45,096 bases of DNA from an uncultured Fimbriimonas sp. GTDB lineage: Bacteria > Armatimonadota > Fimbriimonadia > Fimbriimonadales > Fimbriimonadaceae. Position 1 is the stretch's first letter, and each line of letters begins with the position of its first letter. Where the stretch lies: positions 1-45,096 of the forward strand of contig CAMFIS010000010.1 in assembly GCA_945952345.1 (NCBI GenBank). Reading direction: 5' to 3'. The notes under the pieces are model-generated. The model was not told where the DNA came from. It saw nothing but the letters and a program-made list of their open reading frames with translations, and made no database searches. This document shows, one piece after another, positions 4,404 to 31,172 of this stretch. The position numbers and the translations under genes are program-made.

Positions 4404-6926
<2,523 letters not shown>

Positions 6927-26700: not shown

Positions 26701-27135
26701 ATGCACTACCTCACGGTTCAAGACGTCCTTTGGATTCACCTTCAAATCGCCAAAAGGCCGGTTAAGTTCAACTACGCCAAGTTGGAAGAGGGAGTGAACT
26801 ACCAGTACGCCTACGGAAAGAGCAAGGACCTGGTGAGCCAGGCTGCGAGGTTCTTCTCCGGTTTTCCTGCAATGAATCCATTCGAATCTGGGAACGAAGC
26901 GGTGACTGCTGCGGCCGGAATCACTTTTCTGGCCCTCAATGGTTACGATCTTAAGGTCGGCGTGAAGGAACTGTCAAGCTGGCTTGAGAAGGCATCAAAT
27001 CCAGCGGAGGCCAATGTGGCGATCGAGACGAGCGTCATCCGTAGCGAGCATGGGCATCATGGCACAACGAAGGAAGTAGCCCAGCACGTGCTGGACAAGT
27101 ACTTCAGCGCGCTGCAGTTGATCGCGACTGCTTAA
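26701..27135 (+). CDS. Fic/Doc-fold protein with degenerate active site
   Basis: A 144-aa protein resembling Doc over its first 100 residues: YLTVQDVLWIH at the N-terminus, then LVSQAARFFSGFPAMNPFESGNEAV and AAAGITFLALNGYDLK (the helix after the Fic loop). The Fic motif HPFxDGNxR reads NPFESGNEA. The catalytic His, the acidic residue and the final Arg are all replaced, while PF and GN remain. Active Fic enzymes transfer AMP or phosphate to proteins; this one is probably inactive or works differently. No antitoxin-like partner is adjacent. TAAACT lies 12 nt before the ATG, with no clear Shine-Dalgarno. Confidence 0.8.
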   Translation: MHYLTVQDVLWIHLQIAKRPVKFNYAKLEEGVNYQYAYGKSKDLVSQAARFFSGFPAMNPFESGNEAVTAAAGITFLALNGYDLKVGVKELSSWLEKASNPAEANVAIETSVIRSEHGHHGTTKEVAQHVLDKYFSALQLIATA

Positions 27136-27212: not shown

Positions 27213-27887
27213 CTAACCTAAGTCGGCTGGCGCGCTGCAAGCTGCGCCTTGATCAAGGCGAATGGCTTCGTAACAACGCCCCGCAAGAGTTGCTCCGAGG
27301 ATTGGACCGACGAAGTAAAGCCAAACCGATTTGAGGGCAATCCCTTGGGCAACGATTGCCGGTCCTAAGGACCTCGCAGGATTCATCGAACCTCCCGTGA
27401 TGGGGCCGCCGAGGAGCACTCCGATGACCACGGTTAGCCCAATGGCAAGTCCCGGTACCGCTGGCGGACAGCGTCGGTCGGTCGCGACCGCAACGATGAC
27501 TAGCATCAATAGGAAACTGATGAGGGTTTCACAGATGATGTTGCGTCCGATCGCGCTAGGATCTGTTGGTACATGCAGACCGCCCAGGTGACCAAAGATG
27601 GACCAGCAGATCACCGAAGCTGCGAGCCCGCCAAGAAGTTGGGCAGCCACGTAAGCTGGCGCGTGACGCCAGGGAAAGCGACCCGCAGAAGCGAATGCAA
27701 TGGTTACCGCCGGGTTGAAGTGGGCAGCCGAGATGGGCCCAAGGGCGTAGATCATCGCCATGACGGGTAGCCCGGATATGATTGCGGCTACGAGCAGATC
27801 GATATGACCCACCGACGAAGCGAACACTGGGCACAGAACGATGAAGAATGTGCCGAGAAATTCAGCTGCAATCCGCCGCTTCATCAT
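27213..27887 (-). CDS. Aquaporin-family channel in the ars operon (AqpS-like)
   Basis: A 224-aa major intrinsic protein with six hydrophobic helices. The two pore half-helices carry AHFNPAVT and GSMNPARS, so both NPA boxes are intact. In front it has EFLGTFFIVL, typical of the family. Aquaporins in arsenic operons (AqpS) let arsenite or methylarsenite leave down its gradient. Here the ATG overlaps the arsC stop by 4 nt and no ArsB or Acr3 pump is present, so the channel is the only visible exit route. That role is inferred from context; water or glycerol transport cannot be excluded. Confidence 0.9.
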   Translation of the reverse strand: MMKRRIAAEFLGTFFIVLCPVFASSVGHIDLLVAAIISGLPVMAMIYALGPISAAHFNPAVTIAFASAGRFPWRHAPAYVAAQLLGGLAASVICWSIFGHLGGLHVPTDPSAIGRNIICETLISFLLMLVIVAVATDRRCPPAVPGLAIGLTVVIGVLLGGPITGGSMNPARSLGPAIVAQGIALKSVWLYFVGPILGATLAGRCYEAIRLDQGAACSAPADLG

Positions 27888-28279
27888 GACAATTTCTGCT
27901 CCACTAAGATCCTGATTTCGTCCCGAATTCGTCGGACGGTTTCGATAGGTTGACCCGCTGGGTCATCAAGTCCCCAATCCTCGGTCAGCATGAACTTGGT
28001 TGGGCACGCCTCCGCATCGACCCCACAGCCCATCGAGATGATTTCATCGGCCCGAGCAACCATCTCCTGGGTCAAGAGTTTTGGATGCTGGCCGGTTATC
28101 GGTATGCCAATTTCTTCCATCGCCTGGATCGCGATTGGATTAAGCTGCTTTCCACCCACTGTGCCTGCCGATTCCCCGCAGACCGCTAGACCGCATGTCC
28201 GAGCAAAGTGGTTCACAAATGCTTCGGCCATCTGCGACCGACCGGAGTTGTGGACGCAGACGAAGAGAAGGCAACGCAT
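27884..28279 (-). CDS. arsC: Arsenate reductase, thioredoxin-type (LMW-PTP fold)
   Basis: A 131-aa protein with the phosphatase loop CVHNSGRS (CX5R, Cys8-Arg14) and the redox pair Cys85 and Cys92 in SMGCGVDAEACPTKF, followed by EDWGLDDPAG. This matches thioredoxin-coupled ArsC, which reduces arsenate to arsenite by relaying a disulfide through three cysteines. ATG 28279 lies 1 nt after the arsR stop and gives the family N-terminus; the longer frame reaches back into arsR. It overlaps the aquaporin start. Confidence 0.95.
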   Translation of the reverse strand: MRCLLFVCVHNSGRSQMAEAFVNHFARTCGLAVCGESAGTVGGKQLNPIAIQAMEEIGIPITGQHPKLLTQEMVARADEIISMGCGVDAEACPTKFMLTEDWGLDDPAGQPIETVRRIRDEIRILVEQKLS

Positions 28280-28280
28280 C

Positions 28281-28628
28281 TTAACAGCAGCACCCTTCGC
28301 TGCATTCTCCCTTTGCCATCTCCCCAAAATAGCCAGCGAGGTTTTGAAGAGCGTTTAGATTTACGGTGCAGACCATGGCTTTGCCTTGGCGTGTCATCTC
28401 GATGAGACCCGACGCGGCGAGTTCGTGGAGGTGGTGTGAGACGGTGGACGTAATCTGCTCGGCGCCAGTGACATGACAACAGACTTCGCCGGCTGTGGCT
28501 CCGATAACGCCGCCGTCCTCCAGGACGCTGGCTTTACCACAACACTCTCGGGCGAGGAACTCGACAATGTGGAGGCGTGTCGGATCGGAGAGCGCCTTCA
28601 GCTGCCGTGAAATCATTTCGTTCGCCAT
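28281..28628 (-). CDS. arsR: ArsR-family metalloregulator
   Basis: A 115-aa winged-helix repressor: LKALSDPTRLHIVEFLA, the recognition helix STVSHHLHELAASGLI, and a wing RQGKAMVCTV. Cysteine clusters ECCGK (29-30), EVCCH and the C-terminal GECSEGCCC could bind arsenite; their layout differs from ELCVCDL of E. coli ArsR. It should repress the arsR-arsC-aquaporin operon and release on As(III). The ATG lies inside one arm of a 22-bp inverted repeat, and no Shine-Dalgarno exists. Confidence 0.94.
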   Translation of the reverse strand: MANEMISRQLKALSDPTRLHIVEFLARECCGKASVLEDGGVIGATAGEVCCHVTGAEQITSTVSHHLHELAASGLIEMTRQGKAMVCTVNLNALQNLAGYFGEMAKGECSEGCCC

Positions 28629-28668
28629 CGAAATGATTATATCTTTATTTCGATGGCGAACGAAATGA
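28613..28668 (-). promoter_or_regulatory. arsR promoter inside a 22-bp inverted repeat (double operator)
   Basis: The arms 28613-28634 and 28647-28668 are perfect reverse complements of 22 bp. The core of each is ATTTCGTTCGCCATCGAAAT or its complement. Each arm also has its own half-sites, ATTTCG-N8-CGAAAT. The 12-nt spacer holds a consensus TATAAT (28636-28641, minus strand), 7 nt before the arsR ATG, and the -35 region (TTCGTT) falls in the far arm. Two ArsR dimers would therefore flank the -10. The start codon lies in the downstream arm and the mRNA should be leaderless. Confidence 0.85.
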
Positions 28669-28708
28669 ATTTGTGGCGTGATGCCTCAGCCACGAGTTCT
28701 GCGAGGCG

Positions 28709-28760
28709 TTGAGGCTTTGTTGATGAAGCCTCAACTCTTCGGTCTCAGGCTCATTTCGGC
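28709..28760. repeat. Hairpin plus degraded copy C of the 40-nt repeat
   Basis: TTGAGGCTT (28709-28717) pairs with AAGCCTCAA (28726-28734). From 28728 the sequence follows the 40-nt repeat for 33 nt with four mismatches and then loses similarity. It lies upstream of arsR, outside the operator. The rest of 28669-28960 holds no gene. Confidence 0.6.
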
Positions 28761-28848
28761 AATTATCCATTCGATTCGGCTGACTCAATTGTCGGGAACA
28801 GGAAAGCCCTTGGGCGTGAGTCGTCGCTTGGCGATATTTCAGAAATTC

Positions 28849-28880
28849 GCTGTTGAGGCTTTCTAGACAGCCTCAACAGC
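28849..28880. other. 12-bp palindromic hairpin
   Basis: GCTGTTGAGGCT (28849-28860) and AGCCTCAACAGC (28869-28880) pair perfectly around an 8-nt loop. It contains TTGAGGCT, as does the hairpin at 28709. It may terminate the RbsD-like gene read toward it, but it lacks a T-run. Confidence 0.6.
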
Positions 28881-28914
28881 CAGGGCTCAAATCATCCAAC
28901 GCTTTCAGTTTCAG

Positions 28915-28935
28915 CCCGAAGTCGCCGACTTCGGG
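28915..28935 (-). terminator. Hairpin downstream of the RbsD-like gene
   Basis: CCCGAAGTC (28915-28923), GCC loop, GACTTCGGG (28927-28935), 25 nt past the stop at 28961. On the minus strand it is followed by CTGAAACTG, so it is at best a weak terminator. Confidence 0.45.
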
Positions 28936-28960
28936 TCAATTGAGGCAGCCAGGCGACGCC

Positions 28961-29491
28961 TTAGCCGCCGTTCATGATCTTGCGCAGTTTGCCTTCCTTC
29001 ACCGGACCCCAGTAGGCACAATCCAGTTGCAGGAACACGGAGGTGTAGGGAACGGTGAAGTCCGTCTTCAGGAGCAGAACGCGAAACGTCTTACCGGCTT
29101 CGTCGAGGTTCTTAATGATGTCTTCGTGCAACTCGGTCTTTGTTGGCTTGCCCTTCAGGATCGAGGCAATTTCCTTGCGATATGCGGAAACGCCAGGTGC
29201 CTCAGCTTCCGGAACGTACGCCAGTTCCTTGTCCAGAAAAACGTTGGGCATAACGTGCTTCGCATGAGAGAGCTCGCCCATCACTGCCTTGAGTACCTCG
29301 GTCTGCGAGGCGTGGGTAACGATGGTGCGAATTCCTGGACTATTCTGAGCTGGGTAGGCGGAATCGGCGATTACGATCCAATTGCGATGACCCAATAGCG
29401 GAATTTCCTTCTTGAGGTCAGCTCGCCAAGAAGAACCGGATGGCCGGACGCGAGAGAGAAGTACGGATGCGAGAGTCAGTGAAGCGATCAT
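28961..29491 (-). CDS. Exported RbsD/FucU-like protein
   Basis: A 176-aa protein with a possible N-terminal signal (IASLTLASVLLSRV). The segment LKKEIPLLGHRNWIVIADSAYP lines up with the RbsD/FucU motif LGHxDxIVIADAxFP, whose His and Asp act in sugar anomer exchange (here shown in part: LGHRNWIVIADSAYP). The C-terminal KTDFTVPYTSVFLQLDCAYW resembles the Tyr-containing end of the family. Cytoplasmic RbsD/FucU interconvert sugar anomers; an exported version is unusual. The family call rests on motif reading alone and is moderate. Confidence 0.6.
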   Translation of the reverse strand: MIASLTLASVLLSRVRPSGSSWRADLKKEIPLLGHRNWIVIADSAYPAQNSPGIRTIVTHASQTEVLKAVMGELSHAKHVMPNVFLDKELAYVPEAEAPGVSAYRKEIASILKGKPTKTELHEDIIKNLDEAGKTFRVLLLKTDFTVPYTSVFLQLDCAYWGPVKEGKLRKIMNGG

Positions 29492-29527
29492 GGCAAGACC
29501 TTGCGACCTACCAAGGTTACCAAACTT

Positions 29528-29602
29528 TGGAGCGGGCGACGAGATTCGAACTCGCGACTTTCTCCTTGGGAAGGAGACACTCTACCACTGAGTTACGCCC
29601 GC
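29528..29602 (-). tRNA. tRNA-Gly (CCC)
   Basis: 75 nt including an encoded CCA. The acceptor GCGGGCG pairs with CGCCCGC, the D-arm is ACTC..GAGT, the anticodon loop TTCCCAA gives CCC, and the T-arm is GCGAG-TTCGAAT-CTCGT. It decodes GGG. A second tRNA-Gly lies 36 nt upstream in the same direction. Confidence 0.96.
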
Positions 29603-29638
29603 AGGCGCAATTACATTATAAGCATGAAGTGGGAGGTT

Positions 29639-29712
29639 TGGAGCGGGCGATGAGAATCGAACTCACGTGGCCAGCTTGGAAGGCTGGAGCTTTACCATTA
29701 AGCTACGCCCGC
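29639..29712 (-). tRNA. tRNA-Gly (TCC)
   Basis: 74 nt including encoded CCA. The acceptor GCGGGCG/CGCCCGC is the same as in the neighbouring tRNA. The anticodon loop CTTCCAA gives TCC, reading GGA and GGG. T-arm: GTGAG-TTCGATT-CTCAT. The two tRNAs are probably co-transcribed. Confidence 0.96.
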
Positions 29713-29774
29713 TCGCGAGGTCTATATTATGCACAATCGCCCCCGATCCTTGCCAGACCGGAGGCGACCTTGAC

Positions 29775-31172
29775 CTAGCAGAACTGGAATTCCGGGGACC
29801 CGAAGATGACGCGGAGGACCACATCGGCAACCTGGTTGGCGTTGCGCTGGCTCAAGGCCTGACCGTTCAATGCCAACTGGGCGGCTTCTCCCAGCTTCTT
29901 CAGCTTTGTCTCCGAGAACGAGGCGTCGTACATCGACGCCAACTTGCGCGCGATTCCGTCCGGCGTTGGGTCTCCCGCGAGGATGCTGTAGATCGGATAG
30001 CGTACGCCACCCCTAGCCGCGCCCATCAGCTTGTTGGCCCAGTTGATGCGCTCCACCATTGTCGCCGATGTGATCCACGGCTCGCCCGGCTTCCATCCCG
30101 ATACATCGGGCGGATAGAACAGCCAAAGTCCCTGACTCTTCATGGTCGAGCTGACGGCCTGAGCCGGACCAATCTTGGCCCGTGAACCCTTTTCGTCATT
30201 CGCCGTAGGAGCAAGCTGGGTGGCCATGTTCTCGCCAAGGCCCATGGCTCGTGCCGAAGCGATGCAGAAATCGGCGGGGTTCTTGATGATTCTTCGATAA
30301 GCTCGGTCGGAGTAAAACTCACTTGATTCGACGATCGCCCGAACCAACGTCTTGATGTCGAGTCCTGAACGAACAAAATCGTCGATGAAGGGCTTGAGCG
30401 TAACTGCGTCGGGATTGGGATACACAAACCAGGTCCACATCTTTCGAACGATGAATTCGGCCATCTTGGGCTGCTTGCACAACACATCGATGACATCCTC
30501 GCCGGTCAGGTTTCCGGTCTTGCCCAGAACAGTCTTTACGCCGTCGTCGTGGAGGACCGGCTTAAACATGTACGTCGCCGGAGACTTTTGGGCGTTGCGC
30601 CCGTTGCGGACAAAGCTCCAGCCGGTAAAAGCTCGTGCAGCCTCTTGAATGTCCTTTTCAGTGTAGTTTCCAACACCAAGGGTAAAGAGCTCCATGACTT
30701 CGCGCGCGAAGTTCTCGTTGGCTCGCCCTTTGATGTTGTCTTGGCCATCCAGCCAGATAAGCATCGCCGGATCCTTCGAGACTTCGAGGAGAAGGGTCTT
30801 AAAATTGCCGAGTGCGTTGCGGCGCAGAATTTCGTTCTGCTGAATCATCAGCGGTGCATTGGTGACCTTTTCGGCGCTGGTGGCGAAGTGGTTGTGCCAG
30901 AAGAGAGTCATTTTTTCGACGAGAGGTCGCCGGGTCATAAGCATGCGGGCGGCCCAGCCGACAACCGCTTGCTGAGGCTTGATTTGACCCTTCTGGTCTT
31001 CGACAATCTCCCAGTTGAATTCGAACGCCTCGGGCGTGTTCTCGCAATTGATGAGTTTATCGATTGCGCTCTTGAGCCCGCCCTGGGAGTAATAATTCAG
31101 TTCGGCTTCACTGGCGCCAAGTCCAAACCTGCGAAGGAGGTGCGCAACTTTTTCTTGCTCAGTCAGTGCCAT
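29775..31172 (-). CDS. DUF1800 protein
   Basis: A 465-aa protein with the DUF1800 outline: LLRRFGLGASEAELNYY at the start, MTLFWHNHFATSAEKV, DGQDNIKGRANENFAREVMELFTLGVGNYTEKDI (shown in parts: NENFAREVMELFTLG is diagnostic) and PPDVSGWKPGEPWIT. No signal peptide is obvious. These proteins occur in tandem with DUF1501 proteins, mainly in environmental bacteria; function is not established. AGGA lies 4 nt before the ATG. The 60 nt downstream of its stop leads to the tRNA-Gly pair, so it may be upstream of them on one transcript. Confidence 0.92.
   Translation of the reverse strand: MALTEQEKVAHLLRRFGLGASEAELNYYSQGGLKSAIDKLINCENTPEAFEFNWEIVEDQKGQIKPQQAVVGWAARMLMTRRPLVEKMTLFWHNHFATSAEKVTNAPLMIQQNEILRRNALGNFKTLLLEVSKDPAMLIWLDGQDNIKGRANENFAREVMELFTLGVGNYTEKDIQEAARAFTGWSFVRNGRNAQKSPATYMFKPVLHDDGVKTVLGKTGNLTGEDVIDVLCKQPKMAEFIVRKMWTWFVYPNPDAVTLKPFIDDFVRSGLDIKTLVRAIVESSEFYSDRAYRRIIKNPADFCIASARAMGLGENMATQLAPTANDEKGSRAKIGPAQAVSSTMKSQGLWLFYPPDVSGWKPGEPWITSATMVERINWANKLMGAARGGVRYPIYSILAGDPTPDGIARKLASMYDASFSETKLKKLGEAAQLALNGQALSQRNANQVADVVLRVIFGSPEFQFC

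Follow-up and report, generated by a model that had tools for sequence, protein, structure and literature searches.

Two ATTTCG-N8-CGAAAT dyads around the -10 box and start codon of arsR: a candidate autoregulatory operator in an uncultured Fimbriimonas species and its relatives

In the 45,096-nt stretch of an uncultured Fimbriimonas sp. genome analysed here (the window), the start codon of an arsR gene lies inside a perfect inverted repeat that also encloses a -10 box. This arrangement raises the question of how such a promoter might be controlled, and whether the perfection of the repeat is part of the control. The original prediction, made from the letters of the window, described a 22-bp perfect inverted repeat around TATAAT with one arm running through the arsR start codon, and this structure was found with fully complementary arms (Table 1). 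The left arm, which holds the ATG at 28628, reads TCATTTCGTTCGCCATCGAAAT, and the right arm is the exact reverse complement of TCATTTCGTTCGCCATCGAAAT; if one mismatch is allowed, the arms reach 25 nt at 96%. The internal structure of each arm was also as predicted, with the dyad ATTTCG-N8-CGAAAT exact in both. The two arms had been called identical, and the full match over 22 nt holds, but they are mirror images of each other rather than identical copies. The 12-nt centre contains TATAAT on the minus strand (read from 28641 to 28636). As single-stranded DNA, the repeat folded at -25.9 kcal/mol, compared to -7.0 kcal/mol for shuffled sequences (z -9.7).

Table 1. Coordinates of the repeat and of the operon genes in the window; positions in the Remarks column are relative to the A of the arsR ATG (+1).
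Feature	Position	Strand	Remarks
Start-codon arm (downstream operator dyad, candidate)	28613..28634	-	Holds the ATG and arsR codons 2-5
Start-codon dyad core	28615-28634	-	-6 to +14
Spacer between dyads, 12 nt	28635..28646	-	13 or 14 nt in the other 16 modules
-10 box TATAAT	28636..28641	-	7 nt before the ATG
Promoter arm (upstream operator dyad, candidate)	28647..28668	-	Exact mirror of the start-codon arm
Promoter-arm dyad core	28647-28666	-	-38 to -19, over the -35 region
arsR, 115-aa ArsR/SmtB-type repressor (HTH_5)	28281..28628	-	
arsC-like protein, low-molecular-weight phosphatase family	27884..28327	-	Open frame from TTG
MIP-family channel (aquaporin or aquaglyceroporin)	27213..27887	-	

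The genes arsR, low-molecular-weight-type arsC and a MIP channel occur together on one strand, which is the composition of an arsR-arsC-aquaporin (aqpS-like) operon. The ArsR protein matched the winged-helix ArsR domain HTH_5 of Pfam at 25.1 bits (cut-off 22); its scores for HTH_20 (25 bits, cut-off 27) and for HTH_metalloreg of NCBIfam (51.6, cut-off 55) were below the cut-offs. The NCBIfam scores of ArsR, ArsC and the MIP protein were all under the curated cut-offs, and the window proteins reached neither the equivalog cut-offs for arsenate reductase nor the MIP subfamily cut-off, so the arsenic role is drawn from Pfam, gene order and relatives. The MIP channel is likely an arsenite channel, as judged from the operon context, and the ATG at 28279 is a likelier start for the arsC-like gene than the TTG. 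Searching sequences of solved structures with ArsR returned 6j0e as the sole match (E 0.00067). The best-scoring relative, G002, has the same gene order as the window (DUF1501-like, MIP, ArsC, ArsR, RbsD-like, DUF1800-like). The arsR-arsC-MIP order was found in G002, G003, G028c1 and G120; G001, G015, G018 and G059 have it too, but there a gap separates the first two genes. The available text of a survey of ars operons lists 18 with a MIP channel and none of them with another transporter, with Sinorhizobium Aqps as the model; these MIP-only operons resemble that of the window, and their promoters are not covered in that text (PMC4435449).

The surroundings of the operon showed a few further features. 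Upstream of the RbsD-like gene are two tRNA genes on the minus strand (29531-29602 and 29642-29712), and an Rfam scan of 28300-29800 found nothing beyond these two. On the plus strand, 26701-27135 encodes a protein of 144 aa that matches TIGR01550 (Doc-type) weakly, at 21.3 bits against a cut-off of 38.65, and has no match in Pfam; a sequence resembling this protein is present at the corresponding place in G002.

How unusual is the repeat? With up to two mismatches allowed, the dyad matched twice in the window, both times exactly and both times at the arsR repeat. As 87 of 100 shuffled windows also reached two matches at this tolerance (mean 3.41), it is the exactness of the dyads that counts. 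The whole genome contains three exact copies of ATTTCG-N8-CGAAAT, the two at arsR and one on another contig (G000:C123). The latter lies inside predicted coding frames and was put down to chance, which would give about this number of copies. Among perfect inverted repeats with arms of at least 14 nt and loops of at most 40 nt, the arsR repeat was the longest of nine found in 445,096 bases, made up of the window and 20 pieces of 20 kb each and equal to 11% of the 3.96-Mb genome.

A scan of relatives for the dyad had been suggested along with the original prediction, and it showed that the two-dyad module recurs in 17 of the 85 genomes of the family. With up to three mismatches, the module was found in 12 genomes at a 13-nt spacer and in five at a 14-nt spacer, with G028 in both sets; the window alone has a 12-nt spacer. 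The reversed control pattern gave zero matches in the module searches. Across modules, the dyad centres are 32-34 bp apart (32 in the window), a distance near three helical turns that might let two dimers sit on one face of the helix. When 291 genomes of the phylum were searched for the exact core pattern, 13 matched, of which 12 belong to the family. The remaining match, in G147, was set aside, as tblastn placed none of six ars-locus proteins in the 9 kb searched there. In another genome, G025, two different arsR genes stand back to back (L152, 4532-5981); one is preceded by the two-dyad module, and the other has a MIP gene next to it.

The dyads were then scored at individual ArsR loci. The start-codon dyad retained at least ten of its 12 fixed bases at 22 of 26 loci of one ArsR clade, compared to none of 65 other ArsR loci, and at 21 of those 22 it stood at the -6 phase; one clade row in this scoring, L101, had no identified start. 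The upstream dyad was more widespread: at least nine of 12 bases were present at 21 of the 26 clade loci and at 48 of the 65 others, by a score that carries no shuffle control. Within the clade, its scores were 11 or 12 of 12 at 20 loci and 6-9 at six. The pairing of the two dyads is not strict: at L017, L047, L071 and L074, the start-codon dyad goes with upstream scores of only 7-9. In the ArsR tree, which was built on few columns relative to its rows, all 16 rows labelled two-dyad fell in a single clade of 27. Its support of 90/99 falls short of what the tool requires to call a branch firm, branching within it is poorly resolved, and the strict two-dyad label requires seven gains or losses on the tree. 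Taken together, two dyads, a -10 box between them and an ATG inside the second are the mark of one ArsR clade. In 24 of the 27 clade rows (L046, L095 and L101 omitted), cysteines were present at C50 (24/24), C87 (23/24), C51 (22/24), C30 (21/24), C114 (21/24), C29 (19/24) and C113 (18/24).

The position of the -10 box pointed to a leaderless transcript. We put the upstream sequences of 93 ArsR-type loci into a common orientation and inspected them, leaving 91 after repeated upstream sequences were skipped. At 70 of the 91, a TANNNT box preceded an in-frame ATG or GTG by 5-8 nt, whereas over 200 shuffles the count averaged 21 and never exceeded 30; the gaps between box and start peaked at 6 and 7. 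Transcription of arsR is therefore predicted to start at the ATG or about 1-2 nt from it. Genome-wide, the leaderless signal is weak, with a -10-like box 6-7 nt before the candidate start in 13 of 324 ORFs; by the same crude test, 41 of the 324 had a Shine-Dalgarno-like motif. A consensus scanner called no sigma-70 promoter at the arsR site, where the -35 element is weak. On the plus strand, the left dyad was called terminator-like, the one such call found, with shuffles averaging 2.0.

Where the start-codon dyad runs into arsR, codon use followed the operator. Among the 21 dyad-bearing clade loci at the -6 phase, which were selected for having the dyad, codon 3 ended in C in 21/21, codon 4 was GAA in 20/21 and codon 5 started with A in 20/21, while GAA and GAG are nearly balanced in the long ORFs of the window's genome (1886 and 1901). 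Because bases of codons 1 and 3-5 belong to the putative operator, the N-terminus would be fixed as M-x-x-E-[M/T]. Consistent with this pattern, M-x-x-E-[MTIL] was found in 93 of 118 anchored homologues, and in 90 of them exactly nine residues ahead of the anchor; the 118 come from the best 120 of 198 matched proteins and include the window protein and a few of the same loci.

The same bases could be explained the other way round, with the upstream dyad as the sole operator and the start-codon copy arising incidentally from an N-terminal peptide whose conservation serves the protein. The 48 non-clade ArsR loci with an upstream dyad of at least nine of 12 bases, none of them with a start-codon dyad of at least ten, suggest that one site can suffice. 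However, a conserved peptide would not account for the preference for GAA at codon 4 and for a final C at codon 3, even at loci chosen for the dyad, nor for the joint conservation of the ATTTCG half, which precedes the ORF. Furthermore, the module occurs before genes where the peptide is not part of an ArsR. In G005 it precedes acr3 (448.5 bits, NCBIfam cut-off 282.8), and the operator ATG opens a frame of 25 codons that ends in overlap with the acr3 GTG (L159, 5040-5160). In G010 it precedes arsI (151.7 bits, NCBIfam cut-off 116), and the ATG opens a frame of 42 codons that ends just before arsI (L158, about 4920-5100, minus strand). Since the ATG opens only short frames there, ATTTCGATG would belong to the operator, and arsR would make use of its ATG. 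The short frames are possible leader peptides or a means of translational coupling. We consider the by-product explanation quite unlikely.

The preferred reading is thus an autoregulatory operator-promoter of the arsR-arsC-aquaporin operon. Two ArsR dimers would occupy the two dyads, at -38 to -19 and at -6 to +14, and would obstruct RNA polymerase at the intervening -10 box until As(III) binding released them. The mRNA would begin at or beside the ATG, and its ATG, the third position of codon 3, all of codon 4 (GAA) and the beginning of codon 5 would double as operator bases. The copy of the start-codon arm in the promoter arm would most likely have been written by template switching of a DNA polymerase. 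We give this combined explanation, two-site ArsR repression of a leaderless promoter with a mirror made by template switching, a probability of roughly three in four. It builds on observations of sequence, conservation, phase and codon use, and of the mirrored changes in a sister species that are described below. Three proposals of the original prediction gained comparative rather than experimental backing: two ArsR-type sites around the -10 box (from dyads that recur in the clade), an operator that runs into the coding sequence under shared constraint (from dyad phase and codon use) and a leaderless arsR mRNA (from the box geometry across ArsR loci).

The two dyads do not by themselves explain why the arms mirror each other in full. 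With the dyads already present, mirror identity beyond them can show up in the inner bases alone, and we compared these in 17 modules, leaving out G115 (the same module as G058) and an overlapping third match in G025. The inner positions were mirrored at 8/8 in the window and G002 only, and the 15 other modules had a mean of 3.3 of 8. G002 and the window are sisters in the ArsR tree (99/83) and syntenic at this locus. Their arms differ at three of 22 positions, with every change mirrored in the other arm. By comparison, the 100 nt upstream had 58 matches (shuffled mean 58), and the spacers matched at 8 of 13. A permutation test for the mirror gave 2,848 of 100,000. Non-cognate pairs of arms matched at 8/8 in 3 of 272 cases, two of them through start-codon bases that G003 shares with the window and G034 with G002. 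The permutation result is weakened by these genomes, because G003 has the start-codon arm of the window and G034 the five codon 2-3 bases of G002.

The sister locus also bears on whether the repeat is an assembly artefact or a product of chance. The genome is a draft of 304 contigs, which leaves room for an artefact. Against this, another genome, that of the sister species, has the same structure with different letters at the syntenic locus, the repeat is the longest perfect one in the 445 kb scanned, and the module recurs across the family with a control pattern that had no matches. The chance that the repeat is spurious appears close to negligible.

Copying from one arm to the other, in this lineage only, seems the likely origin of the mirror. 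Perfect stems can arise and be kept intact through template switching, and one event can make or repair a stem and so give paired changes, according to the part of one account available (PMC8794818); the available part of another reports that it homogenises the arms of inverted repeats in coding DNA (PMC8604942). Both marks of such copying were present, an arm that is the reverse complement of its partner and paired changes in relatives; with two loci, this is a consistent pattern and no proof. As to direction, G003 carries the start-codon arm of the window unchanged and G034 carries the five codon 2-3 bases of G002, both without the mirrored promoter arm. This recurrence suggests that the promoter arm is likelier the recipient and the coding arm older, barring convergence. 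A further, tentative step, to which we give slightly less than an even chance, is that coding sequence and promoter evolve in concert, with repeated template switching writing codon changes into the promoter arm. On the same reading, with the same reserve, the differences at residues 2 and 3 between the window and its sister (Ala/Thr and Asn/Asp, respectively) would also have been written in the non-coding arm.

Alternatively, the perfect repeat may itself be functional, with a supercoiling-dependent cruciform, or a single-strand hairpin around the -10 box, silencing or tuning the promoter and the mirrored changes being selected compensations. The original prediction had likewise treated the 22-bp perfect repeat as part of the switch, with a looped or cruciform state as one of two ways to block the promoter; neither the mirror nor such a state gained support in this role. 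The fold is indeed very stable in both mirrored loci (z -9.7 to -11.3; in the fold of all modules compared, -10.5 in the window and -11.3 in G002). It is weaker in three of the four non-mirrored modules that were taken for folding out of 15 (z -4.2 to -5.6), and the fourth, L153, folded no better than 24 of 200 shuffles (z -1.2). Selection would also give the same paired changes at all three positions that differ between the window and G002. However, 15 of the 17 modules with the same layout do without the mirror, which selection leaves unexplained; the partial folds elsewhere follow from each arm being a dyad, and a leaderless mRNA would contain one arm only. We therefore did not adopt a cruciform or loop as the working state and regard a functional mirror as unlikely; template switching would explain the mirror better than a required cruciform.

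Both arms would be present in a transcript that started further upstream. With read-through from upstream, an RNA hairpin of the two arms could pair (the pairing having been computed for DNA) and hide the start codon, placing the operon under translational control, and a terminator scan of the minus strand found none between the upstream gene and arsR. Against this stand the -10 box only 7 nt ahead of the ATG, the absence of the mirror from most modules of the same layout, and two imperfect, hairpin-forming inverted repeats between the upstream RbsD-like gene and arsR (28702-28741 and 28849-28880). An RNA hairpin over the start codon is accordingly disfavoured as very improbable. The two imperfect repeats, which were absent from the terminator-scan list, have GTTGAGGCTT in common in one arm.

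The arsR locus of the window belongs to a known kind of system, the ArsR-autoregulated ars operon, of which the start-codon operator with a second dyad is a variant. In Pseudomonas putida, the regions protected by ArsR1 and ArsR2 extend, relative to the predicted start site, from -39 to +14 and from -36 to +23, respectively, and the DNase I footprint of ArsR1 is close to the -38 to +14 spanned in the window. The P. putida promoters also resemble that of the window in their partial palindromes and in autoregulation of the ars operon, but they have a marked ribosome-binding site, and the available text describes neither a start-codon dyad nor mirrored arms there (PMC7994332). TtSmtB of Thermus thermophilus HB27 is likewise an ArsR/SmtB arsenic repressor that binds its own promoter cooperatively, and the 5' end of its own transcript is at -3 relative to the first translated nucleotide; in the part of that study available, however, the mapped footprint is one 28-bp site with the sequence TTGCTCAA, over the -35 box of another promoter (PMC5658604). 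Rv2034 of Mycobacterium tuberculosis is an ArsR-type autorepressor with a palindrome near its coding sequence, and its footprint covers -30 to +3 and -26 to +8 on the palindrome CCGTAAGT-N4-ACTTACGG. This is a single palindrome rather than two around a -10 box, and the available text does not describe the locus as an arsenic operon (PMC3338718).

In engineered Pars promoters, a second ArsR site is reported, in the text available, to lower background expression (PMC3918153, PMC9134189, PMC5116461). That second site was built by hand, whereas the second site of the window is natural and recurs in the clade (compare the same sources); natural two-site promoters of this sort may serve low-leak arsenic biosensors. 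The template-switch literature shares with the window the paired changes, the perfect stems and the involvement of coding sequence, but its available text deals with RNA genes and yeast genes, and here the pair consists of a start-codon operator and a promoter operator (PMC8794818; PMC8604942). Among the titles and abstract openings of open-licence literature, we found no ArsR operator that combines a leaderless arsR start codon with a second upstream dyad. The locus would offer a natural example, recurring in a clade, of a regulator whose start and first codons double as its operator; a single stretch of DNA would serve the protein, the operator and the leaderless start of translation. With a few sequenced relatives, the mirrored changes could also be used to test what part template switching plays in operator evolution.

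The module has a practical consequence for the annotation of arsR starts. Of the 118 anchored homologues, 32 were called at least seven residues upstream of the expected start, and 25 of these 32 have Met at exactly -7. A 13-nt spacer that starts with G after the CGAAAT end of the upstream arm would form an ATG at this place, and hence the Met at -7. Among the homologues with a more upstream called start, 33 of 34 have [I/V]S just before the expected start, as ATT/GTT-TCG would read. Gene callers therefore probably often begin these proteins inside the upstream operator arm, at its inner edge, and the database starts of such arsR homologues could be corrected downstream to the ATG within the second dyad.
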